Source of the DNA: Chrysoperla carnea
Taxonomy: Eukaryota > Arthropoda > Insecta > Neuroptera > Chrysopidae
Direction of reading: 5' to 3'
Length of the DNA stretch: 64,000 nt
Assembly: GCF_905475395.1 (NCBI RefSeq)
Contig: NC_058338.1
Coordinates: 77,635,435-77,699,434, forward strand
Shown here piece after piece: positions 27,771 to 56,838 of this stretch; the first letter of the stretch is position 1; each line of letters starts with the position of its first letter. The translations under genes and the position numbers were made by a program. Under the pieces are notes generated by a model. It saw only the letters and a program-made list of their open reading frames with translations. It had not been told where the DNA came from and ran no database searches.

Positions 27771-30700
27771 CTACGTTTTATCATGATGTTCTGCATTACT
27801 ATGTAATTCAACTCCAGACGATGGTGATAGAAAATCAATTGGTGCATTCGGATCATTCACAGGTGCCGGTATAAAGAAATTATTACTTGGTGGTATCGTA
27901 GATGGGTTTAAAGAAGGTAGAGCTGATGTTGGATTAGTTGATTTTGCTGTGCCACCTGGATTAAAAACATCCACGTATGCTTTCTTTATACCTACAAAAA
28001 TACATACATTATTAAATCCAAAAAACAGACAATATTGTCAACGGAAACCATTTTGTACCAGGCTAAAATAGTGAGAAAACTAATTTTTGCATCGTTAGTT
28101 AGGTTTTTAGAAATAAAATAAAAGGAATATTTTTATTTTTATTTGGGTCACTAAGTACAAAGTTTAAATAAAAAACTGAGAAAATTATCGCAATTATAAA
28201 AGACTAGGGGAATATGGCAAATCAAATTAAAATATAAAATGAAGTAGGCATCTTTTGTCTTTTCATTCAATGAATAAACCAACTATGTCTAACAAGTATG
28301 GTTTACATATTTTTATTCGTGGCGCTGAAATCTTAGCGTTAAAAATCCCAAGCTTGACTTTCCACTATTTACGGTTGCCAGCTCAAGTTCCGGGAAGTCG
28401 GAAGGAAAATCGAAAAATCGAGAAATAGTGAAATTAACCTAATTATACCACCCAATTTTAATACTACTATACGATATTTTCGATGTTTTGTGTACTCAGT
28501 TTTAATATAATTAAAAATTTAAGTAAATATCCTTCAAGTAAATTAAAAAAAAGAGCTGCTCAGATTTTTCGAATTTACCTGAATATGAAACAAATAAACA
28601 CTAAAAACATCTTTTTTTACTGAAATCTAGAGAATTTATGTTGATATCAGGAGTCGGGAGAGACTAAACGATTTTAGAAGTGGCAACTATGCCAGCACTC
28701 CAAATTTCTAACGAAAAAATCAGGATAAATCTCAGTTGTCTCTCATAAATACTTTCAAACGTGACATGTTATAAATTGAAAGTGTTTTTATTTTTAAAAA
28801 CTTTTTATCGGTACAGAACATGATGAAAAGCCAGTATTTGCTAATAATATTAAAACATACAACGGAACACTAAATTTATGACACGTATTTGGTCAATTTT
28901 TACAATGAACCATTTTCCTGAAATTTACCTACTTACAATTACAAAGTAGGTAAAAATGTTCACAAAAATTGTTCACTGGGTAGGCGCTGGTATAACAAGT
29001 TTTCCATTATTATTTTTATAATTTTTAAAAATTCATATACTTAATTATCTGTTTCATTATGCTTACCTCGACCACGTTGCATTTTGAACATATTGGGTGC
29101 CGATGGTGGTTTAAATTGTGTATCATTCTCATCAACACCCACAGGTGGCAATGGTTGCTGTTGTTGAAGTTTCTGATTATTATTAATTGCATTATTATGT
29201 AATACTTGTGCTTGCTGCATTTGTTGCATTTGTAGTTGTTGTTGATTATTATTTGATTGTTGGTAACTATTTAATGATGGAGGTGGCATACCACCACCTG
29301 GTTTATTATGCAACAAATCTGTCATCTTTGGAGGTGGTTTTACTTCATTATTTGCTTCTTCACCATCTGCATCTAAATTCACCCATTTTTTCTTTTCTGG
29401 ATCCCATACGATCTACAAAAGAAAATTATAACATTATGTTAGGTTAAGCTGTAAGTTATTTGACGTGAGTCATACTTTAGGGTTAGGGTTAAGGTGCTTT
29501 AGGATTTGAAGAGAAAGGTACCTTGAGGCCTGTTTAAGAACAGCAAAAATGTTTTACTCAGAGATTATTTTCTCTGTTTCTCTATTACAGGTTATCAGAG
29601 TAGAATGATTTTAATGTAGCATATTTCCAAAAATGAAGATATCAGCGAGATATTACTCACCGTTGGATTTTTATCATCCGGTAAAATCATTTGATTTTTC
29701 GGTCGCAATGATAATTTATTCCATATACCACCAAACCAACCAGACGATGAACTGTTCCCTTGTTTATTACTCAACGCAGAAGACGATGACTTGGCTGGTT
29801 TATTCTCCGCATTACTTTTACGTTGATTATTATCTTGATCATAATCATATTGTCTACTATTTCCTAGTGAATTTGGCATTGTAATTTGTGGTTGCTGCTG
29901 CATCGGAGATGATGTCTGTTGTTGATACTGATCCTAACATGAAACATAAAACAAACGAGAGAAATATTATTCCAACAATCTGTTTTACATTAAAAAAATA
30001 CTTAACTTTTAATTACTTTTTTGATTTGTTAATTTATTTGAGAGTGCGCACTGACGATTTTTAATTTTTTTCATAAATATTGTTAAACACAAAATTTTTT
30101 CCCAGAAAATATACAAATATATATGAACACAAACTTTATTTTTCATATAGGTGTAAACACAATGCAAGCAAAATTTTAAGCACCGCCACCAGGCCAGTTG
30201 TGGTTGACAGTCATGAAATTTACAAATGGCTATGAGGAAACAATTTCTTTATGAGTAATGATTTTTAGACATTCCATCTTAAACCTTTTTACACAAGAGG
30301 CAATGGCCCTACCTTAAAAATATTTCAAAAGAAAATAATTTCCTATATCAGACATTCCCAAAAGCTCTTTTGCTCTGTAGAGATCTTTACCTGCCTATTA
30401 GTGAATTCTCTTTTCACAAAAAATTTGTATTTTTTAATACAGTGGAACCTCCGTAACTCGAACCTCAAGGAAAATGCAAAAAAATTTCGAGTTAATAAGT
30501 TTTTGACTTAAAAAGTAGTTCGAGATACAGAGGATTTAATTGCTAAAATTTCGACTTAGAAAGGCGCGAATGTATTTTAAAACTACGAATTCATTAAATT
30601 TTACTAATTACGACTTTCGGTATCTGCTTTTTGAAATCACATAGTATAAATAAGTACTATCAATATCTCGAACGAAAATAATATTTTGTTTGAATTACAA

Positions 30701-33700
30701 AGACTAAATAATTCTAGATACCGCGTATTTAGGGGATTAGTGGAAGGGAATGGCATTTTTTTCGACTTACTGAGGACTTAACGAGTTATTGAAGTTCCTT
30801 ACTAAAATTAAACGAATTTCATTATCATTTAATAAAATTTATGTTCACATTTAGAAAAACTTTTTTAATAAATAAATGAAGAAAGCATTTGATTTTTTTT
30901 TTTACAAAACTATTTATTTTAGATTTAGATATATACCTCCAGAGAAAAAGAAAACATCACAGAATAAATGAAATAATAATTAATAATACTAATATCTAAT
31001 AATCTTTTAATACTAACAATAATATAAATTTTTATGTGCAGTTCATATCTACAGAGTGTATCACAAAAAGGATGCCATACTAAAATCGATTAATGAACGA
31101 ATTTATTAAGCTGCAATGTCTAATCATGTTTTTTTAGATCAGTTAGTTTATTCTTAAATGAGCTTTCAAATACAAAATAATAATCGGAGACATGATCTAG
31201 GTTCGTTATAATTTAAATTTTTAATAATTTTGAGTAATATGAACATGGTCCCTAAAATATTTAATTTTCAAAGTATAACTCATAAAAATTTCGAGAGAAT
31301 TAAGATATTGAAAGGAGAAAGGAAAAACTTGTTTTTCTAATATCCCAAATAAAGCAGCTAAGAGCAAACTGTTTAATTTATTAAAAAAAAAAAGAAGCAT
31401 TTTCGGATCAATGTTTGTAAGAATTTTTATCCTTACTTTGAAAACCACTCATTATTTACTCTCTAAGTATGATACGGCCTTGTTTGTGATATTCTGTATA
31501 ATTAATTAATGATTGTATTTTAAAAATTTTGAATCCTTTTTAAAAATGGTATAACAATACATATTAACAATTAGTAACAATTTCAAATGAAATAAAAACA
31601 ATATTTATTGTAATCATAGATCACAATATGATTTGTAATTTAAATTAATCGACTTGTAACTACTTTTTAGTATCACATAGGATTTTTTAAGAAATAAAAA
31701 TACTTAGCAGTTTTACAACACTGGCTACAGAGACCTGTATGTAGTCATTCAATAGAGAGAAACAATTTTCTTGTTTAAAATAACTATTCGTGATTTAAGT
31801 AAAGACTCAAATCGATATTGCCACTGCGCATAAATGCCGTGATAAATGTTTAGCAACCCTTTTTGCATCAATTGTTGAAAGTATTATATTTTTATAATAG
31901 AAGCAGAGAAATAATACATTTTAAAATAACCATTAAGAAATTCAAATACGTTACCCAGATATTCATCATCAAATTCCTATCATAACTGGGAAAAGCGCTG
32001 AAGATTTTCATATGTAACATCAGATTTTCATTAAGCAAGACTGGGCACCATATCAACTAAACTTAAGGGGTTATATCCAGTTAAAATTTTCAAAAATTCG
32101 ATTTTTTTTTTGCATTTCCAAAATGTACATATATATAAGTATATTCTCCAAAAAGTTCAAGTTAATTTAAGAAATAAATATTCACGAAGTAAAACTCATT
32201 GAAAAAAATTTTTTAAACTGAATATAAACGTCTTTTGAAATTTTAAACGCGTTTTTCTCGAAACAGCGTTTTTAAAGTTGGTGAGCAAGATTTCTCCGAA
32301 ACGGCTCGACCGATCGGTTTCGAATTTTTACACAATATTCTTAGATATTTTCCCCAGGTATTAATCGGAGGAATAAGATTGAAAATTATTTTATTAATTA
32401 TTCTGAAAAGCGGGATTTTAAAATTAAAGGAATGTCCTATATGTATACGCTTTTTATATTTATGTAAAATAAATGGTCTTCCCAAAAATAACTGATGAAA
32501 AAACGTGTTTTTTGCGCTCGCATCTGGATATAACCCGTTAACATAGAAATAGACATAGACATACATTTTTTCGAGAACTTGGATGTCATAGACGATTTAA
32601 ATTTGTAACATCCTTATTTCTATTTCTACGGTTGTTAAATCAAAATACGTTCAAATAGAGTAGAAATTTTTACCGAGAAGTATTCAAAATAAACTATATT
32701 ATAAACTTGAGCAATTTTGTGGTGTCTGAAAAACTCTTTTTAAAGGAAACTTTCCAATGTGATACTAAAAATTAAATCGATTTCTAACAAAACTTTTTTT
32801 TTTTAATTTTCTAATAAAAATAGACTACATATCAAATTTATAATAATTTTCTACATCTATTTAGGCATTTTATATAAACAATTGACATTTTATGCGTGAT
32901 ATAAAAAAATCATATTTGTAATTATTAAATGCAAGAAAAACTTTAGAAAGCAAATCTTTTGCCAAATAAAACTTTTAAACTTCACTAAGTTTTCTTCGAA
33001 TTATTATTTGATGAATGTTAGTTTAGAAAGTTAAACTTTCATTTTTCATGATTTTATAGATTCGACTACACTTTACAAAAAATAAATGCTTGTGGAAACA
33101 AAATCCAATTTTTTCGAATTAAGTCAAGGAGATGTAATTCACTTAATAGATTCTCAAAATTCTACAATACCTCGATTTCTGCGTCATATTTTAAACAGGC
33201 AAATTTTGGGGTTTTTCCTCTTATGCTTGCTAATTTTATCGAGATATAAAACGATATTTTGGTAAAAATATCAACTAGTACTAATCAATGGGTGCATCAA
33301 TATCAAAAGTCCTTGGGGTTTCACTGCGTTGTCGATTAAAACATCTTCTCAAGTAAATATCTTCCTGATTATCATCCTCAATATCATCATTATATGCCAC
33401 TAAATCATCATCGTTCTCATCAAAATAAGATACTGGTGCATCGATTGGATACGTTCCACCAAACACCAACGGTTTATAATAACCACCCGAATATCTGTTA
33501 GTATGACCAAATAAACTATTTTTAAAGCTCGATAACATGTTTGAGGATGTTCTTGATGTGACCGCACGTGACGAAGATGCCCATGCATCCACCGTATTCG
33601 ATATAATATCGTGTTTTCGCTTATTACGCTCATATGTAGTTAATTTAAAAGTGGAAACATTTGCATCGTTTGAATCTAGCTCAAAATTTGAGATGGCTTT

Positions 33701-36700
33701 ATATTTAACAATTGACTTTTTTGGTTGTAATTTTTTATTATTTAATTTGGTTGTTATTGTTTTACCATTTTTAATTGATATTGAACTTTTCATTAATTGA
33801 TTATCTTTATAATATATTAATTGTGTATTATTCTGTTTTTTTAAATGTATTGTTGTGGCAGCATTCGTAGTTGGAGTTATTTTACATTTTTTATAAATAT
33901 CATTTGTATTATTCACACAGTATTGTTGTCCAGATGATAATTGTTCATTATTTTGATTTTTTAATTTTGTATTCATTACATAACGTTTACGTAATGTATT
34001 ATCAATAGCATTAAATTGCTGTTGTTTGTTAGACGATAATTGATAATGCATCATACTTACGTCATCCGTTTGTGTTGATTCTTTTGTTTCTGTGTTTGAT
34101 GGTAATTCAGTTTGCTGCGTCCAAATGGATAAATTCATATATTATTTATTAATGATGAAAATTAAAGACTTTACAATGTTTAAAGATTTTCCCAAATCAT
34201 GCCATTTTTTAAATCAACGATATTGGTAGCAGCGTGCAAGGAGTTCTTGCGCATTAGTGCCTAATAAGGCAGGCGATTAAGGGTTTTTCAATAAGGACTA
34301 TACACCCGAATAAGATAAAATTGATTCATAAACTAAATGCACTTGATCATTTGAAATGTTCCGTTCTTTTCTAAAATAGTAGCCAAGATAAAGCCATGTA
34401 GAGAGCATTTTTTTAATACTCCTCCTTCTCGGAACCCTTACGTAAGTACATAATGGCCCCTTAAGTGCAGGACAATAAATTTAAAAAAAAGTTGGCCAAT
34501 TATTTTAATTAATATCCAAAAACATTGCTTGAACTTTTAGAGAATAAAATAATATATATATTATTATAATTATTATCCCAAAGAATTGGGCAAATTTTTA
34601 TCTTCAAAATATATTTTTTAAAACTAGAAAATACAAATGACAATAATACTAATTAAATAACTTTACGTTATTATTGTTGTAATTTTCTTCGCAACTGTTT
34701 TAACATTCATATTTTTTATTTGTTTATTAAAATATTTCAACAATGTATTCAATTTGAAAGTATACTGTTTTTTAATTTAATGATTAATATTTTTCCGCAA
34801 TGAAAACGATAGGCGTGGGGATTGAGGACTTTGAATCACAATTGTTCTAAGAACACATTAAGTAAGAAAATAAGAATAGTTTTTTGGTAGAGAAAAATAC
34901 CAAAGCATTAAAATATGGGTTATTTACAAGCATTAAGAAACAAAAGCAAGAATAGTACGGATCACCCTTATTCACACAGCAAAAATGGAGTAAACAAAGA
35001 GATATTTTTTTATGATATTTCAATACACACGGATTAAATTGAAGTTGGTGGTTAAGTATGCAGATGCATATAAATCCAAATCAATAGAAATAAGCTTGAG
35101 TTTCGAGCGTATTTTCGCGAAAACTAGAATCTATTTTATAGCAAAAAAACTTTATTTTTAGCGGTACGTGTACACTGTAGTTAGAGTGAATTCAGCTAGA
35201 TTAATACACCACGTTTACACGTAATCAATAAAAAACATTATGAGATTTGTTCTAAAGCTAAATCTAGCAAACCTTCTAACTAGAGCTGTAAAAAGCTCTA
35301 CGTAGAGTGCTCTAGATAAGTTTTAGTGTAAGCTCGGCATAACTGTAGCTTTAGTTTATATGTCTTAGAGTCAGCAGGCAAACGTGGCTTTTATATATAG
35401 CTAGATTAACCCGTATACTCAGTACAGTATACACGTACCTTAATATTAAGGTAGTATAGTAGTATCGAAAGTCACAGTTAACTGCTATTTTTTAACATTT
35501 ATTCAAAATATCATAATTTCCTTAGTTAAGAAAAAAAATTAGAGATTTATATAACTTAAGAGATACGATTAATTAAAATTATGCAAAATTACATGGACTT
35601 TTATGAGTGTCTCTGTTTAATAACGCCGGAAACTGATGGTTTAAGAAAAATTGAAAAATTAAAAAACTCCAATTGATAGAACTATGTCTCAAAAGGTACG
35701 TTAATTTTAATTTATTATAAACTAGCTCTGAATTACCTGCTTCGATGGGTAACTTCAATTTTAAATACAAAGATTATTGTGTTACAACCTTCACTTCGTA
35801 AGCAGTCACTTACCCTCCTTTTGTTCAAAATTTCCTTTAACCTCTAAAATTATCTTAGTTTCTCTACTATATTATGCATATATTATACATAAAAACCTAT
35901 CTTGGGAATCACTCTATCTATTAGAAAAAAAACCGCATCAAAATTCGTCGCGTAGTTTTAAAGATGCGGGAAGCGACTTTGCTTTATACTATGTATTGGT
36001 TTTTTATATCATTAGTTGTAAAAAAACAATTCAAAAATGATTGTCGATTTGACTAAACTGTTTTACGTCTCGATACTGCTCTAATATCTTGTAAAGATAT
36101 TATTATTGATTGATTATTGTATATCTAGTCTGTGTAAAATGATACCATGGAGAACCAAATGATTTTATATGAGGACACTCAATTTTAATCAACATAAACA
36201 TAACCAATTTGATCAGTGTGTCTTGAAACCCCACCTTGCATTTTAGATAATATTTTCTAAATTTAAAAAACTTAAACCCAAAACGAATTTAAAAAAAATT
36301 AACTCACCTGAATATTATCTAAATAATTATTGTCTTGTAATTGTTGATGTTGTTGATTTGAATCGTGTTCAGTTATATTCCGATCTGTACTCCATTGTTG
36401 TTGATCCCAATATTGATTTTGTTGGTACTCATTACCAAATCTTCGATCGTCTTGTTGTGTTGTATGATAACTAATTGTTTGTTGTTGTTGTTTATTATTG
36501 ATGTCTGATTGTTGTTGTTGTTGTTGTTGTTGTTGAGATTGATATTGATTATCAGACCATGTTGTGGATGATAATGTGTTGTTGTCTGGTTGATTCTGTT
36601 GAGGTAAAAAGTTATCGGTTTGATAAAATTGTTGTGTTTGATCAATATTATGTTGTTGTTGTTGTTGTGTATGTTGTTGTTGTTGTTGTTGATTGTTCCA

Positions 36701-39700
36701 ATTAACAGATGATTGATCATACGTTTGATTCAGTTGTTGATGCTGTTGTTGTACAGCTGCAACGTCATCATGATGATCCGTTGGTGGAGTTAAACTTTGT
36801 GTAATGTCTAATTCTGATGATGCTAAATTACTCATTGATTGTCTTTCTTGTAATATACCCATCTAAAATGAAATTCACAATTTTACTTTAAGTCAAATCT
36901 CAATAATTCAAATCACACGAGGACCTATTTATCTATTGAGAAATAATCGAAGTTCGAAATATCAAGATATGAATTTACATACATGAGAATAAGATCTGGG
37001 CAGTTAGAATTTAAATTTTCCTAAAGAATATTCAATTCTATTAGTGAAATTCGACTTTAAATCGACAAAATAATTCCGATACTTAATGGTTAAAAAATCA
37101 GCACATGTAATCTTAATATATAAAACAAGTGAAAACAAACAATTGACTGAGTTAATTGTTGAAATACCATGTATAGACAGTGTTGATGCGCAATCGTTTG
37201 TTTTTTTGACGTCACGTAAATAACAAAAGATATTCACTTTTAAATAGACACACACACAACTGATATTCCTATATTAATACATACTATAAAATTTGCACCT
37301 AATTAACGCCCTCGTGGGTAAACAGTGATGTTTACAAAAAAATTCTTCAACCAAAGTTTTTTATTTTTTATAAGGAACATTTTTTACATTTAAACTTTTG
37401 TTCTATCTCTAACGGTTAACAAGATGGGTCCTACGGACCCAAGATCCAATTGACCTATGATGCTCATTTACGAACTTGACCTCACTTTTTACGTCCTGAG
37501 TACGCTGTAAAAATTTCAGCTCGATATATTTTTTCGTTTTTGAGTTATCGTGTCCACAGACGGACGGACGGACGGACAACCGGAAATGGATTAATTAGGT
37601 GATTATATGAACACCTATACCAAAATTTTTTTCGTAGCGTCAATATTTTTAAGCGTTACAAACTTGGGACGAAACTTAATATACTATGTATATTTCATAC
37701 ATGGTATAACAAGGTCAGGTTAGTTGGACCATTCATGACTCAAGAATGGCTAGACCGATTTAAATGATTTCTGATTTGGTGGATTTGTTTCCACCACAAA
37801 TAACAAAAAATAATTAGAATACAAACAAAAATAATAAATTAAAATAAAAAAAAACGACTAAATTGTTTGTTTCGTGCAAGCGTTATTAATAAATCTTGTT
37901 GTGTGAGTAAGATTACTATTGTTATGTAATAAAAAAAATATTGAACAAAAAACGCAACAACAACTGTCAAATCGATTTGTCTGCATCATTCCAGATCATT
38001 CGGTCAATCAGTCATCCTATCAGCATATAATCTATAAGTCGCGAAACGTTCCCAGGAAGCCGTAATGCAATTAGGTATCGAAATAATCAATTGTTCCGAA
38101 AATTGCGAATCAATCCATGAAAGAAGAACGAGAAATTGCACGCGAAAAGAGCAAAGTGAGGCAACCCGTGAAATGGCTATTTTAGAGATGAGTAATTGTC
38201 GAGCTTATCGCACAGATCAAAACGTTGTTATTCTGTATTCATTAAAATCGACAAAATTGACTTTGTAACAAGCGAAGATGAAGCCACTTACTATCCAACT
38301 GAATTTTTAAACTCATTGAATGTGCCTGAATTATCACCGCACAATTTACAACTGATGGTTGGCTCGGTAATCATGATGCTTCGAAATTTAAACCAACCTA
38401 AACTATGCAATTGAACGCGGTTGGCGATTTGAAAACCGATGATTAATGTGATTCACGTGACAATACTCAAAGGAACGAAAAGTTTTCAGGTTCAATTAAA
38501 ATCTCACTTTGATTCATAACTGACAAACATTAGATGAACGCTTTAAATTATAAAGTTGTTCTTTATAAACATGCAAAAATTTTTTTGTAAATCGAATAGT
38601 TTAGCCAGTAGCCAGTAACAAAAATCTAGCTTTTTTTGTGCATTTGTTCATTCAATTTGAACAAAAATGGTCGTTATAGACAAACAAACCATCTTTATTG
38701 GATTTATTGAATAATTTTTTCGAAGAGTGCCTAGATTCCGCAGAAACAATTATACGAAGTAACAATTTTGATACGAAAAACCACTTTCGGTAAAATATTT
38801 CAGTCCGTTTTTGCTTAAATCGTACGGTTTACGGAAAAATGTTTCGAACAAAATATGTTACTTTTTTTTATCAATAACAACTTTCTAATTTAAAGTGTTC
38901 ATGTATCGATTACCAATTATGGAGTAGAATGAGTTTTTCATCGAGCTTGAAAACCTAGGTCAAGTTTAATGTCTGCGTAAGACGTGCGCATACACACCCA
39001 ACATTTTTCGCTTGAAGCATTTTTATGGATAAAAGTTATTGTATATTATCCTAATAAACCATTGAACTTAATAAATTTTTTGTTTTCATTGAATTACATA
39101 TATAAAACCCTAAATCATGTTCAGCAAAACGGTAACGAGACATTCGTTGACTATTAGGCAGTATGAAGTTCGCCGGGTCAGCTATCATATGAATATATCA
39201 CAGATCTCAACTTCGACCTCCTTTGTAAATTGAGAGATTATTTAAGTAAAAGACTTCCCAATACTTACATTGTAATCATTTAAAACTGATTTTAAACTGC
39301 TAATCCACGATGAATTTATAAAATTATCATCCGTACTCTCATTTGCATCTAACTGAAATTCAGCCATTGCTGTAGGATCTCGTGCACATAAACGTTCCGC
39401 TAGTACAAGAATTTGATTGGCAAATACAGCATCATATCGTGTTGGATTTTGGGATATAATGGTACCAATACGTTCTGTATATAGCAATGCACGCTCGAAA
39501 AATCCACGTTCAGCTAATCTTGTTGCGATTAAATATTTATAAGGCTGAAAAAGAAAATTTTAAATTAAAATTAATTAAGCCAAAACGACGAAGAAACATT
39601 TTACTTCTAAATTTTCTGAACAAAATTACCTGGAATTCTGGAATTGTAAATGTTGTATCGCTTAAACTACACGCATATTCATATATTTCTGTCATAATGA

Positions 39701-42700
39701 TTGCTTCATTTGTGGCAAATTCACGGAATTCTTTTTGATGTGATGATCCCAATAATACTAAACGTCCCGCTTTGTAATTAAATCGTCCAAAACCAGTTTG
39801 TGCCATTAAATAACAAAAATGTGCAGCATATAATGAACCCCTAGCTTGTAATGTATCACCCAATGTAGTAATCGCTTTACGATCTAATTCTGGTCGTTGT
39901 GATGTATTCGATAGAATCATTGCAAGATGTGGTCTCCAATCACCCCATTTCTCATCCAAAACACACTGTAAATATTATTACCATTAAATACTTAAAATTC
40001 AGCCGTTCTGAAATGATTGCCAAATCCTACGTCTGATCCTAGATCTATATCGTGAATATTTTACTCACCGTTACAGCAGCAGGTTGTCGACCAGATAATA
40101 ATTGATATAAAGTTTGCAATGGATCATTTATTGTTAATCCATTAGCAAAACGCATCATAACATTTGCATAAGTTCGTTTATCTAATTTACTTGCCAAGAA
40201 TAATGCATGGCCCCATAAACCATGTTTCATAGCCCATTCTAATGCCTCTTTTCCAGATCCATAAATAAGATATTCCCTAAATTTATTTGTTAGATATGTT
40301 TCATTGAAAGCGTTTCCTTTCGAATTGGTTCCGTTGGTTTGTTTAAATGTAGACGATGTTGGAGGATTGTCATCGGTGTCTGGAACAGCCACCGATGGTA
40401 TTTCTTCGGGTAAACTACTAACTGATGATACTATTGATTCACGACGACTATTTGTTGATGCGTTTGAGTTTTGTCGTGAGGCATTTCTCATTAATAATTC
40501 TGCAATATCAGTGCCTACCACAACCTAAAAATACAAAACTGTTATGAAACTGCCTGAAATCGCACCGAGAAACAAACCATGCCTTCTTTGGGTTTTTTGG
40601 CTGCACCTCAAAAACTATTTGGGAGATATCTCTAATCCTCAAATGAATCCAATTCTTCTATTTTTTTAGTTTTATCGAAATTTTTTTCTCGATTTTTTGC
40701 AATTTTCTTAACGAATAGTTCTTAGGAAAAAATCGAACAAATGGCAAACATTTTTTTATTACAAAATTTGATAAAACTCGGCATATAGAGTAAATAATAC
40801 AAAAATTGGATTGATTTGACGGTTGGTCGAACTATTGATAATACTAGAACTACTCACAAAGTTCTCAAATGGAATGGATTTTGTATGTTTTTGGGGTCTT
40901 TTTGATCTTATATGCTCCGAAAATGAAAATCACAAAAAAGTTAAATATCTTGATGTTTTAAAAAAATAACATTAAGATAATAATTAATGGAAACCCCGAA
41001 AAAAATAAAAATCGATTTCTGTTAAACATTTTTCAAATTTTTGTTGTTGATACTTTTATGCTATATTTAATCACCAAAAGACTACAGGGAAAATGCAGGG
41101 AGGAAATATTTTCTACTTCATAAAACTGATAGACTTGGAATTAGCAACGAGAAGTCTGTAGGGTATAAAAAAGGAATGATTTATTAAAGTAAATACTTAC
41201 GCCATTTTGCCTTAATAACAAAATTAACAGTTCCCACATTAAAATATAAGATTCTTTATCATTAATATGTTGATTTGAAGTGAACGATTCAGCTTTTTTA
41301 ATTTTATTCTCACAATATTCGATTAATGTTTTCTTATGTGTAACGCCTTTAATTAATGGTCCAGGAAAATCAGCTAATTCTTGTTGTTCTGGATCATTTG
41401 CTAATAATAACTCATGCAATTCCATTATTTCAACTAATGGCGATTGTCCATCCATTGGATAATGTGGTAAAACACGAACTAAATGACCAGATGATATGCT
41501 TGCTTTTACATGAGCTGTTGAGAATTTTGTTGGTGTTAATCGTTGCACTGATACAGATGAATCTTCTAAATTTAACGATGATTCTGTACGATCCAATGGT
41601 CTACAAAATTTTCATTATTTAATGGGAAATCATAAATGTTATTGCATTTAATTTTTTTAATACCCTGACGTAATTAATACTTTTTATTACCATTTTTAGA
41701 AATTATAGTAAGTTATTGATAAGCACCCTGTACAAACCTTATTTCTCCGTCTTGGAAAGTTTTTATGCCTGTCTAAGTATTTTTTAACCTCTGATTTGTA
41801 ATCTAAAAACCTGTCACCGGACTTAGTGACCAATAAAACGTTTGATCGCCATCAGTTTTAATCGAATTCATCGAATAAAAAAAATTTGTACAGGGTTCTT
41901 AGATGTTATTGCTGCTTCCATAGTTTAATTGTTAAAGAGAGACTTTATTATTGAATAAGACTCTTTCAAAATACAACTTTACAGCTTTTATTTACCATAT
42001 TCTCATGGTCATTTATAAATTAGACATTGAGCGTCGAAAAATTTAATGGAAAATTCAATTTTTCCCAGAAATAATGTAATTAATGTTGGGGATAAAAAAA
42101 TTGTGTGTTAGCTTCGACGCACGACAGGAGTTTACTCCTTAAGTGTTGTATAGTGTAAGGTGTCCGTCAGGTTATTGTCAGTTTCAAACAATAGATGCTT
42201 TGTCTGTTATACGTACTATGAAGTATAATTTTTATATTGTAACCCTAAAAAAACCCGAAGACCTACGACGTACGTTGGTTGAGTAGCTATGTAGTTTCTT
42301 TGTATCGGTGGGTTATCTACACTGTGTGATGTGTCCTTTAAGTTATTGTCAGTTTCAAACAATAGAGGCTTTGTCTACAGTACACAAGTTGCGGAACAAA
42401 AACGTAACGAGGTCATTCGATCACTAGATTTTACTCCTCATATTTTTTTCAAACTGGGCGCTTTATATGAAAATCGAATTTTAAGGAGTAAACTCCAAAC
42501 AATATTTATTATTATACGATAATTTTGAATATTTTAAAAGAGTCTTACAAATTTTTATCAGTTATTAATGATAAACTATTAATAATTAAATTTTCTTGAG
42601 TTTGTGCTTTATTAATAACGACTTGGATAGTTAAAATAATTATAGACCTGAATTATATCGTGTTTTATAATATTGATCAACAGAAATGAAGTTTCAAAAA

Positions 42701-44750
42701 TTAAATATCTTTCAATATCGTTGTTGTGAAATAACCTTATTTTTTTCAAAATGATGTCAAATTCTTAAGTTAACCTAATTTAAGTATCAAAAATTTTTTT
42801 TTTATAAATATACAATTTTACAAATACACATCCAGGCGTACTTATGGCGATTTCAATCAAACATACGAACCAATAGATTCCAAATTGATAATATTTTCCA
42901 AGCACCATGATATCCATGAGCAAATTTCTATTAATAGCACAATAATTTTAAAAATATCCCAAATTTGATTTCCAACAAAAAAAATTCCTCGAAAATTCGT
43001 GTTTGCCTTTTACAACGAGATCCAAAAGTGCAATATCAATATGAAAATTGTTTTCTTAAATTGATTGAACTAGCACTTCCTAGTACGTGGTACACGATTT
43101 AGCGTAAATTTTTTTTATACTAAAAATTGCTTTGAATGTGAAAATAAATTTTTAAAATTACTGAACTAATATCAAACTAAATTAACTACTTCAAGCCCTT
43201 TCTACTTTAAGTATTCAGGGTGGACCATTTTAATAAATTATGGCTAATAGCTCGTTTTGTAGTAAATCAATCAAAAAATAACTCGAACAAAAGTTGCAGT
43301 TTGATGGGAGACATCATGTTCTGACATCAGATTGGACCTTGTTCTCTAGATTGTTTTAATAGTCAATTTAGATCGCAAAAGCTAAGAGATAGAATAACAC
43401 TTTAAATGAGAAAGTTGATCCTCATATGACATATTTTTTTAAGTCGCATTTCTTCCGAAAGCTAATGATTTTCAAAAAAATGTTTTCAATAAAAATATTT
43501 TTATTGAATCTAGATACTCTTTATGGAGTTTATTATTTTTGACTAGCAAACCGGAGAACTAGGTTCAATCTGATGTCAGATCATGATGTTTCCTATCAAA
43601 CTCTGAAACTTTTGTTTAGGCTATTTTTTGACTGGTTTACTACAAAACGAATTATTAGCCATGGTCCACCTTTTATGCCAAAGAAATTACTAACAAACTA
43701 AAAATTTGAATACAGTTTGATGCTAGGGACGATAAGTAATAATTCTCATCGATACCTAAGTCGTATATATATAAAAAAAGTTAAATACATAGAAAATCGC
43801 ATGAAATTGTTCTAGTGGAGGGAAAATAAATAGAAATACCCTTCTTTTAGTAAAGGCTGAATCTCTTTTTGGATAAAAGTAAATATAGTTTATCGTCCCA
43901 TTAATTCTTATTATGGGACAGGGGTAAAAATCGCCAATTTTTAAAACTCTTAAGTATTTATTATAACAAAGATTCGAAGGATCAAATACTTTGCGAATTT
44001 TCCGCGGTATAACTTCATTTCACTATAATATTTCGCTTCCTAAAAAGTGAAGTAGAAGACACAAAAACCATCACCTTGATTATTATTTAATATTATTATT
44101 CGTCGGAAGCTCACAAATGTAAAAAATGATAGATAAATTTTAACATGCGGCGATGATATCTTTTTATAAAATAAATTAATCGAATCTGTTGTATAAAAAA
44201 ATAATCGGCACACATTAAAATTGACACTTTGTCATTTTTGACTCTGCCACACTTTTGTAATTTCTATATTTAAAATGATTAAGAGCTTTATTGTATAAAT
44301 TTAAAGAATGGGGATTCTGAAAAGAAAATTTTTTCTTTTTTTTTTTTGATAAAAATGGAAAGATCATATTTATAACAAAACTGTTTTTATATTTTATTTT
44401 TTCATGATAATTTTAAAGTTACAGGCAGTTTTAAAAGAACTTTTCAAAAGAGAAACGAAAGCGCCCGACAAAAAAAATATTCGTAAAAGAATGTAGGGTG
44501 TAACGTCATAATGTTAATTAATAAATGTATACAGTGTAAACTATTGAATTGACATTATTACGTCACAACGATGTTTTACGAACATTCTTTTTGTCGGGCG
44601 TTTTCTTTTCTCTTTTGAAAAGTTCTTTTAAAACTGTCTGTAACTTTAAAATTATCATGAAAAAATAAAAACAGTTTTGTTATAAAACTTTCTTTCTTAC
44701 GATCTTTCCATTTTTGAAAAAAAAAAGGTTCAAAATTCCAATTATTGCTA

Positions 44751-44796
<46 letters not shown>

Positions 44797-47700
44797 ATTT
44801 ACATTTAGTAGAAAGGAAATTAAAGTTTTCCACCATTTATTTACAAAGCTGAAAATTAATAAAATAAATAATACATATTTTTACATACATTTAAAAGATT
44901 ATTATTAAGCGAGATTTACAAATTTTGTTTCTCCTAGATTTGCTAAACAGGACAATAATCTTTAATTTTAATTATTTGAAATATGAATCATAATTAATAA
45001 TAATCTTAAAATGTATGTATTATAAAAAACCAAAAACCAAAACAAATCAATAAAAACCAACACCAAAACAATCCAACATTAAAAACCCATGATATGTGTG
45101 TTAATAAGACAGAAAAATAGCATTGAATGTGTGTTATATATGAAATGTACGCTATTAGAGAGCTCACCTAGAATATTCTTGACTATAAGAATGAGTATGC
45201 GATTGTGAAAAATAACCACCCATATGGGATACTTCTGATGAACCACCTGAATAATATCTGTGACTTGTGCACCTAGATATAGTAGAACGGTACAAATAAT
45301 GGAGACATGTGATTTTTTTATTAAGCAAATAATAATTTAACATGTTCGTAAAAGCATGAATTTTTTATGCGTCGAGGGTTCCGTACTTACTACATACACA
45401 AGGTTTAAAATATACTCATATTTTTCGATCAAAATATACAAGGTTTCCCGTGACTCGATGAACATAGTTTAAGGGCGTATTGTTTGAACAATTTTAAGTC
45501 GAAAGTACCTTATATACTTTTGTCCAAAACCTAATAGTTAAGGAGTTATGGGAACTATTGAATTTAACCAATAAAGTAACGAAGTTGTTGAGTTAAGTAG
45601 TTCATTGTTTTGTTAATTAAAAATTTTTGTTTTGCTAACACGAGACAGCGGAGGAGACATTTTGAACAAAAACTTTAATACACATTTGTGTTAGCAAAAC
45701 AAAAGATTTTAATTAATAAAACAATAAACTACTTTACTTAACAATTTCGTTACTTTATTGGTTAAATTCAATAGTGCCTAAAACTCCTTAACTATTGCGT
45801 TTTGGACAAAAGTATATAAATCTACTTTCGACTTAAAATTATCTAAAGACTACGCTCTTAAACTATGCCCATCGAGTCACGGGACACCTTGTACATCCTT
45901 ATATGCAAACACAAGCTTTATGAAATGAATTTTGATACTTTCTTTCAAAAAATTTACATTAAAAAAAAGTCAATTTATTCTTAAGTATTTTGTTTTTTTT
46001 AAGTGCGAAAAAAACCCTACAAATATCGCTCAAAAAAGAAGGTTATGTTCATTTTTATAAATTCCTGATTTCGATTAAAACGTTTGGGTAAGAAAATCCG
46101 TCAATGAAGATCAAATTTACGTAGAAACAAGTCTTGACATAACAAGTCTTTGAAAATAAAATCGCCACTTACGAGATACTTGTTTGAAAAAACTGAATGC
46201 TAAATCGAAAAACGCTATAACTTAATTTAATGTAGCTATCAAATAAATATATAAACAAAATTTCGGCATTTTTTTTGACATATTTTATGGTACGGAACCC
46301 TAAGGACCCAATGAAACAAAATGATAAAAAAAATTCACAACAAATACAAAATTCAAAAAACAATATACACACTCGTCATCATCTTCAGCACACATGTATA
46401 ACAAAAGGTTAAAAAAAAAACAAAATTCATTTACAGCAGTCACCAATTACCTCTCTTTATGTAATTCATCGTTAGCTGAACTACGACCAGAATGTACGGA
46501 TGCTTTATCTTCATGGCCGCGAAAACCTTCAATGGATGTTGGCCCAGCTCCCATTGCACCATAACTTTGTAAATATTTACGATACCATTCAGCATATGCT
46601 GCAGGGTTAGTTCGACGTAAATTTTCATAATATTGATAATGTTGTTGATAGTGGGCCGCATAATATGGATCATAAGCACCCTTAAAAAGAAATCCATTTT
46701 ATAAGGATGAATTTTTGTTGATTTCGAGATATAATTATTCAAATAAATACTAACACGATACTCGAAATAAAATTGAATTTTACGTAAATTTATTTAAAAA
46801 TATAATTTTAAAAAATACAACAGACCAACCATCGTCAGTAGCTAAATTTATGCATATAACACATTACAAACATTCTTTAGAAAGTTAAAAATAAATATGT
46901 AAAATATTACCAACAATTATAGTAACACTTTCAAAAATAAATACAAAAAATTATCACAAAATCGAAAAAATAAATTTTTCAAGACCACCAAAGTTTTTGT
47001 AAATTATTTAGTGGCTAACCTAAAAATCTCTTTGTAAAGAATGTTTGTAATGTGTTATATGAATAAATTTAGCTACGGGCTATGGTTCCGTTGCAATCGA
47101 AATATCAATTAATATCTATATTAATATACAATTTTATTTCGAGTATCGTGGTATTTATTTCAATAACTAAATCCATTTTAGTTTCAAACCTCATTTTAAA
47201 TTGAAAATTTGGAGATTACCTGATAATATGAATTATATGGATCACGGGTTTTTCGATGATCCAAACGTTCACGATAATTTGAATCACTACGGCTTGATGG
47301 ACGTGAACTATGAAACAAAATAAAAAATTTAATTAAACCTAAGGGACCATTCATTAATTACGTCAAACATTAAGGGGAAGATTACTCTCCAAAGTCTACC
47401 GTACAATAAATTTTTTTAAATGATTGGAATCTTTTCTTAACGTAGTCAATAATTTATCGTTAACTTAATTAATCTTTTATTCTATTATTTAAATTATTGA
47501 CTTATGGGTTTTCTGCTTCAATAATAATTAACTTTAAAAAGGTTAATCATTTCAAGTTCCTAAAGTGATGCAAACCATTTTTATAGGGACTCTAAGTATG
47601 AAATGTCGGGATCTGTGGGAATAGGGGATTTTGATTTAATTTAATTTGAGGTTGAAGCTAACAGTCTATTGGAAAAATTTATAAGCCTTGCTTCCTCACA

Positions 47701-55463: not shown

Positions 55464-56838
55464 ATGAATACGTAAGTAAAAAAATTTCAATATTTATATA
55501 ATTTTTTTTTGTTTAGTCTTTTTATACCATGCATATATTATGTAATATGCAAGGTATACTAAGTTTAGTCCCAAGTTTGTAACGCTTAAAAATATTGATG
55601 CTAAGCAAAAAATTTTGGTATAGGTGTTCATAAAATCACCTAATTAGTTAATTTCTGGTTGTCTGTCTGTCTGTCGTCTGTATTCTGTCTGTCCGTCTGT
55701 CATCACGATTACTCAAAAACGAAAAGAGATACCAAGCTGAAATTTTTATAGTGTACTGAGACGTAAAAAGTGAAGTCAAGTTCGTAAATGAGCAACATAG
55801 ATCAATTGGGTTTGGGTCCGTAGGACCCATCTTGTAAACCGTTAGAGATAGAACAAAAGTTGACATGTAAAAAATATTCCTTATAAAAAAATAACCATCA
55901 CGAAACATTTTTTCGTAAATATCACTGTTTACCACTGAGGGCGCAAATTAGGCGTAAATTGTATAGTATGTAACTATGGGAATATCAGTCATGTGTGTGT
56001 GACATGTATGTTTGTGTAATGTGATAAGAGTCATCAACACTGTCTATGCATGGTATTTCAATAATTAACTCAGTCAATTGTTTGTTTCCACTTGTTTTTT
56101 GCCTGAATCTCGATTTTTTACCTAAAATTATCTTATGTAAAACGTATTTTTTATAGTTCCAAATCCTCCAGTGAAGAAAATGTTACATTGAAATCTGAAA
56201 CTATATCACAACCTTATAAAGAATCCTTAATTAAAGACGAAATATTAGTGGAAAATATCGATTCAGATAATCAACAAATTAGTAATACAGAAATAGTTTT
56301 TTCATCAAATCATACAGACGTAAATTTAAATATAAAGCCGCACACTGAAAAAACGTCATTTGCGTGTTTCATTTGTAATAAAAAATTCGAAAATAGAATA
56401 TCATTGAATATACATAAACTCCGTCACAAAGAAAAAAAACTTTACAGATGTGATATTTGTAGTCAAAAATTTTCAGTTGAATCGGAGTTATTTTCACATA
56501 AAACAACTCACAACGAAGATAATTCATTTTTGTGTAATATTTGTGATAAAAAATTTACTAAACTTGTTTGTTTAGAATTACATAAACGAAGACACATTGG
56601 TGAAAAACGTTTTTCATGTGATTTTTGTAATACAACTTTTTTCATGGTTGGCAACAGAGTAACCCATAAACGAATTCGTTCCAGTGAAACATCTTTTTCG
56701 TGCAATGTGTGTGAAAAAGTTTTTGCAAAACGAGATTATTTAGTTGTTCATCAACGCACACATGGTACAAGAAAAAGATTTGCATGTACCGCTTGTGAAA
56801 AAAAGACATTTAGCCAGCTAAGTAGTTTATCTATGTAG
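55464..56838 (+). CDS. Short C2H2 zinc-finger protein with truncated last finger
   Basis: Probable nucleic-acid-binding protein of 229 aa. Proposed exons are 55464-55471 (ATG AAT AC, donor GTAAGT) and 56157-56838 (acceptor TTTTTATAG). The 2-nt remainder joins in phase to give MNTSKSSSEENV. The tiny first exon is inferred only from its splice site and phase; a longer upstream exon is possible. A serine/acidic leader is followed by C2H2 fingers at about residues 70-90, 98-118, 126-146, 154-174 and 182-202. The fourth has THKRIRS where a second His is expected. A sixth starts CTACEKKTF but stops at SSLSM before either His, with one residue too many after the second Cys. There is no ZAD domain. 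The gene may be young, decaying or a fragment. A family A repeat fills most of the intron. Confidence 0.7.
55521..56097 (-). repeat. Dispersed repeat family A, near full-length, inverted
   Basis: Reverse complement of the 37123-37709 copy from end to end: TTATACCATG at one edge, TCAATTGTTTGTTTCCACTT at the other, with TTAGAGATAGAACAAAAGTT inside. It includes a (CTGT)n patch. It lies in the intron of the adjacent zinc-finger gene, ending about 60 bases before the acceptor. Confidence 0.85.

Follow-up and report, generated by a model that had tools for sequence, protein, structure and literature searches.

Does a long open frame inside the intron of another gene represent a gene of its own, a part of its host, or neither? 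This question arises at Sec16 of the lacewing Chrysoperla carnea, in a stretch of 64,000 nucleotides of chromosome 2 (the window; assembly GCF_905475395.1, NC_058338.1, positions 77,635,435 to 77,699,434). On the minus strand, at window positions 33281-34138, a frame of 285 codons runs from ATG to TAG within a single phase-0 intron of Sec16. A coding frame of unrecognised family, nested in the Sec16 intron on the strand of its host, is supported by the analysis described here. It is quite probably a genuine separate gene for a protein, with all of its coding region in one exon, and this is the explanation that we favour.

Position and copy number of the frame

The host gene was identified as Sec16 from its minus-strand frames, which match the Pfam families TPR_Sec16 (3.5e-22 and 2.6e-12) and Sec16 mid-region (1.7e-9). 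The intron extends over 29934-36307 of the minus strand (6,374 bp) and is in phase 0 on both sides. Its junctions, placed by eye, are CAG/GTGAGT at 36308/36307 and TTAG/GATCAG at 29934/29933. The frame lies entirely within this intron and on the strand of the host, and the same-strand position in a 6.4 kb Sec16 intron, given in a preliminary description of the locus made from the DNA letters alone, was confirmed.

In the open reading frame translation of the window, 285 codons are followed by TAG, and the plus-strand reading of the same interval has many stops. Without its stop codon the frame corresponds to C2:77668718-77669572, on the minus strand of chromosome 2. An in-frame TAA is found two codons above the ATG, in agreement with the start described earlier. 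The frame is single copy in the C. carnea genome: a search with the whole protein finds itself only, even at E<=10, and the C-terminal 109 aa give one extra match (E 3.99, 38% over 42 aa), which was taken as chance.

Coding evidence

Length and codon usage of the frame were compared with null expectations. For length, 3,000 introns of 6,367 bp were simulated under a fifth-order model, for which presumed non-coding DNA of the window served as training set. A stop-free run of 285 codons occurred in none of them, the longest being 207 codons and the 99th percentile 147; the number of such runs expected genome-wide on both strands is about 0.05. The earlier statement that a frame of this length exceeds chance thus held against the simulation.

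Codon usage was trained on 28 kinase-domain matches of the same genome (6,581 codons), two of the 30 kinase loci (L022 and L026) having been excluded for in-frame stops. The codon log-likelihood of the frame is +27.2 bits, and its other two frames give -42.9 and -68.3 bits. None of 1,500 stop-free random frames (mean -75, s.d. 14 bits) reached this value. The thirds of the frame score 9.6, -0.3 and 17.9 bits, which were matched by 0, 5 and 0 of 3,000 null stretches respectively, and residues 151-285 score +20.8 bits. When both strands of the intron were scanned, a single segment stood out as strongly coding-like, 33284-34114 with 70.8 bits; the second-best segment, with 18.1 bits, is antisense within it. 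As both the length and the codon usage are far outside the null, the frame is considered to be coding.

Several observations weigh against a separate coding gene. The middle third, at -0.3 bits, is only neutral in absolute score. Seven Sec16 stretches scored alike gave 25 to 234 bits, all above the frame per codon. The best segment of the intron starts right after the phase-0 CAG at codon 8, as would fit an alternative exon of Sec16, and the first 8 codons of the frame score -1.7 bits. The ATG has T at -3, a poor start context, and a scan of 1,262 bases upstream found no convincing promoter. In an empirical control of 59 open stretches of at least 50 codons, from DNA taken as non-coding, the average was -0.24 bits per codon and the frame scored +0.07, a value equalled or exceeded by two of the 59. 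One of these two, with 83 codons, is situated on the minus strand within 41700-47700 and may be an exon of Sec16 that had escaped masking; this interval was treated as non-coding though small Sec16 exons are possible there, a bias that works against the coding call.

Features of the predicted protein

Its composition makes a largely disordered product most likely; the middle is basic, a single TQT-D site of LC8-like type is present and the tail is acidic. The basic region comprises residues 55-150 (33689-33976, minus strand), is rich in K, N and T, has a net charge of +15 in 96 residues, and overlaps the weakest coding signal (residues 96-190). The acidic stretch, residues 238-262 (33353-33427, minus strand), carries a net charge of -12 in 25. 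TQTD at codons 22-25 (34064-34075, minus strand) is the core of an LC8/DYNLL-type motif; the TQT at residue 22 is the only one in the protein, and 0.16 are expected by composition. Compared with the LC8 consensus [DS]-K-x-[TVI]-Q-[TV]-[DE], as given in PMC3078936, positions -1, 0, +1 and +2 agree (T-Q-T-D); position -4 lacks the [DS], and position -3 the K. That the protein performs its molecular role through such short motifs is a guess, and a doubtful one.

By charge and hydropathy, six of seven segments lie on the disordered side, the exception being residues 201-237. AlphaFold2 models made without relatives have a pLDDT of 33 for the whole protein and 50 for the last 101 residues, which is weak evidence either way. 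A structured, conserved C-terminal module, as proposed in the preliminary description, is unsupported by these low-confidence models. What survives of it is a patch within residues 201-237, which might be ordered over a short length or serve for binding.

Search for relatives

The protein could be assigned to no family by Pfam, PHROGs or PDB searches, and none had been recognised in the preliminary description. With the whole protein nothing exceeded the Pfam cut-off; the best match was FHA (14.6 bits, cut-off 20.7), and both this and a cupredoxin match were rejected as below cut-off. The C-terminal 109 residues gave no Pfam match, and the N-terminal 83 gave FHA at E 0.13. There was no match at E<=1 in PHROGs, which covers viruses of bacteria and archaea. 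Among PDB sequences the best match (E 0.32) aligned on the acidic region and was not significant at the threshold of E<0.001.

IMG/VR and prokaryotic contigs were scanned with six exact peptide words each, a procedure that detects close relatives only. In IMG/VR, six stretches fitted a pattern from the C-terminal 109 residues and none was confirmed as a relative. Among prokaryotic contigs, the one match, in a Clostridia metagenome-assembled genome (35% identical over residues 165-233, its best segment, with the shared word NKRKHDII), was rejected as chance; the gene cluster around it, of which it occupies the first frame, we take to be hrcA-grpE-(hydrolase)-dnaK-dnaJ. No relative was thus found in the collections searched; as C. 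carnea is the sole insect whose genome or proteome they cover, this says little about insects. Insect orthologues may well exist; the protein is unassigned, not demonstrated to be new.

Flanking exons of Sec16

Directly upstream of the intron is a Q-rich Sec16 exon (36308-36862, minus strand), whose frame is open up to the CAG of the donor. The exon directly downstream (29661-29933, minus strand), with a donor GTGAGT at 29660 and a following exon from 29412, was delimited by eye. Pfam gave nothing for it at E<=0.01; from its sequence, which is of a type usual at the C-terminal end of Sec16, it is presumably the C-terminal region of that protein. Pieces of zf-AD and C2H2 zinc-finger genes flank Sec16 in the window, at 1968-2435 and 56188-56838, both on the plus strand.

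Splice sites, promoter and polyadenylation words

Splice sites were scored against 32 acceptors and 33 donors self-trained on kinase and ABC loci, and not checked against transcripts; 41 of 51 loci were used in this training, the remaining 10 having stops in both orientations. Three Sec16 acceptors were added to the reference, giving 35, and scoring was leave-one-out. The preliminary statement that the frame has no splice acceptor proved too strong, given two sites. A phase-0 acceptor, CAG/CAA at 34114 (codon 8/9), scores 0.2, above 3 of the 35 references, and is weak; of the 121 YAG sites in the intron, 80 equal or surpass it. It is in phase with the host donor at 36308, both being phase 0. 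A mid-strength acceptor, with its first following base at 34370 (minus strand), precedes the ATG by 232 nt; its score of 7.0 is better than those of 22 of the 35 references. Three YAG sites of the intron score above it and one more about equal. Within the frame, the donor GAC/GTAAGT at 34060 scores 6.5, inside the range of the 33 reference donors and reached by 13 of 307 intron GT. Together with the acceptor at 34114 it would delimit an in-frame exon of 54 nt, phase 0-0 (34061-34114, minus strand), that holds the TQT-D motif.

A spliced 5′ untranslated region is possible for the transcript of the frame because the acceptor at 34370 is of medium strength. The earlier term "intronless" stands for the coding frame, which is one exon; the transcript may contain an intron.

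Further upstream, a TATATATAAAAG stretch is present at 35399 and a donor AGG/GTAAGT at 35813. TATAWAW words within the 1,262 bases upstream occur at 34558-34560, 35140 and 35395-35399. Past the stop, the first ATTAAA is at 32802-32807 (minus strand), 474 nt downstream, and the first AATAAA is at 32395. Over the intron, taken for this count as 36298-29932, there are 15 AATAAA and 21 ATTAAA, which indicates that such words are frequent by chance. Promoter and polyadenylation words were dropped as evidence, being too common by chance.

Alternative explanations

The frame could be an alternative last exon of Sec16, with the exon at 36308 spliced to 34114 and the usual C-terminus swapped for 277 residues ending at 33281. 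The strand is that of the host, the junction is in frame with both sites in phase 0, 34114 is precisely where the best coding segment starts, and the eight codons before it score -1.7 bits. However, most YAG sites of the intron are as good as this acceptor or better, a phase match is expected by chance in about one case of three, and the frame stays open past the acceptor to an ATG. A last exon of Sec16 is possible but handicapped, since the acceptor is phase-matched yet weak, and we consider it unlikely. Still less probable is an extended form, in which a splice switch replaces the COPII-binding C-terminus by a disordered tail with the LC8-like site and acidic end, dynein light chain dimerises or moves this second Sec16, and translation from the ATG of the stretch possibly yields a free protein as well. 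If Sec16 did use this exon, it would be an unusual way to alter the COPII platform. The 54-nt segment 34061-34114 could also be a cassette exon of Sec16, adding the LC8-like site in phase 0-0, with the rest of the frame being something else. Its donor is in the reference range, its length is divisible by three and its phases match, but it shares the weak acceptor and does not account for 259 further codons, of which residues 151-285 carry a positive score; it was set aside for these leftover codons, and we hold it to be highly improbable. The favoured separate gene, for its part, might have a 5′ untranslated exon joined to 34370 and its coding frame in the last exon. The standing of this acceptor among the references, the TATATATAAAAG stretch at 35399 and the AGG/GTAAGT donor at 35813 are in line with such a leader. 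However, 6.4 kb of AT-rich DNA will contain such sites by chance, three other YAG sites of the intron score higher and one about equally, and the donor at 35813 is upstream of the TATA word at 35399, so both cannot serve one leader. The spliced leader is a tentative refinement inside the favoured explanation, and we lean against it.

A chance open frame, a functionless young de novo frame or a decaying relic would accord with the absence of relatives in the collections searched, one false match among prokaryotes aside, with the poor start context and with the near-neutral middle third. Against this, length and codon usage are far beyond the null in every third, and the frame is intact; a very young frame would in addition be expected to retain intron-like codon usage. 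Such an origin is very unlikely. A retrocopy, a transposon gene or a viral insertion might be suspected from the intronless coding region and from the repeat copies downstream. No multi-exon parent gene was detected in the C. carnea genome, and in the 680 nt examined downstream there is one A-run of 8 or more, starting at 32804, and none by the stop; there is therefore no sign of retroposition. A transposon gene is opposed by the single copy of the frame and by its flanks, which are nearly repeat-free beside it: three further short genome matches (44, 62 and 33 bases of query) were obtained for the upstream flank (34139-35300), and the dispersed repeat begins about 720 nt past the stop, where 69 of the 70 matches listed lie elsewhere, a lower bound as 40 of 455 candidates were scored. 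For a virus, IMG/VR, scanned for close relatives, and PHROGs, which represents viruses of bacteria and archaea, gave no relative; an insect virus could have escaped both. Taken together, these mobile origins are scarcely probable. Part of the repeat, at 32200-32557 of the window, has listed matches elsewhere that are 69-93% identical, and it overlaps an open frame of 107 aa (32243-32566).

Other observations in the C. carnea genome

Bacterial genes were observed at the end of chromosome 1 (C1, about 138.5-139.5 Mb; loci L032, L049 and L069-L072). They include a stop-free frame for CtaD, cytochrome c oxidase subunit I (NCBIfam TIGR02891, above cut-off), a piece of an MsbA-like ABC exporter, for which the best match was below cut-off, and an integrase-like frame seen by eye. 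Four sampled 10-kb stretches there have a GC of 0.33-0.35 and 43-64% of their length in open frames of at least 150 codons, figures read without a host control stretch; a GC of 0.291 is stated for chromosome 1 in PMC10116181. The outer samples differ: GC is 0.265 with 77% open at 138.0 Mb, and 0.284 with 40% open at 139.9 Mb. Probably the scaffold was joined here to the genome of an endosymbiont, or else received a very large insertion. Rickettsia in C. carnea is the subject of published papers. Broken COX1-like pieces with stops, at C6:6312573-6313197 and C2:59569181-59569471, are probably nuclear mitochondrial insertions.

Discussion

We favour a separate gene nested in the Sec16 intron. Such a gene would be transcribed from its own promoter inside the intron, with a 5′ leader that is perhaps spliced and ends at 34370, and its mRNA would end within the intron, possibly after the ATTAAA at 32807 or the AATAAA at 32395. 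The Sec16 pre-mRNA would drop the whole nested unit through splicing. As a guess, the basic middle of the protein could bind nucleic acid or importin, the N-terminal TQT-D site could be clamped into a dimer by the dynein light chain LC8, and the short hydrophobic and aromatic patch and then the acidic tail could make protein contacts.

With same-strand nesting, the inner unit must terminate its own transcript without terminating that of its secretory-pathway host. If confirmed, the locus would add one more unassigned lacewing gene and another same-strand nested case; as it stands, no new principle is needed. Among the best-ranking papers, no literature joining Sec16 with a nested gene was found. 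Insects commonly have genes within introns. According to PMC3786989 about 6% of the genes of D. melanogaster lie in introns, and thus the nested arrangement is of a known, ordinary kind; only the protein lacks an assignment.

The nearest likeness to the arrangement is 2mit in timeless2 of Drosophila (PMC3786989): there too a single intron encloses the entire coding sequence, and the gene around it is larger and unrelated. The two exons of 2mit are on the strand opposite to that of its host, whereas the lacewing frame has one coding exon on the strand of its host. An alternative last exon of Sec16 would find its parallel in exons 29 and 30 of human Sec16, which undergo alternative splicing (PMC4980449) and share the C-terminal position in Sec16 and the possibility of in-frame splicing. 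The human exons are part of a 211-residue region encoded by exons 26-32; the lacewing frame, in contrast, has 285 codons, a stop of its own and a weak acceptor. At the level of the protein, clients of LC8/DYNLL such as Panoramix (PMC7861614) and ASCIZ (PMC5963919) resemble the lacewing product, whose chain is probably disordered and carries a TQT core with a D next to it. Unlike these clients, the lacewing protein has one TQT and misses the consensus at -4 and -3.

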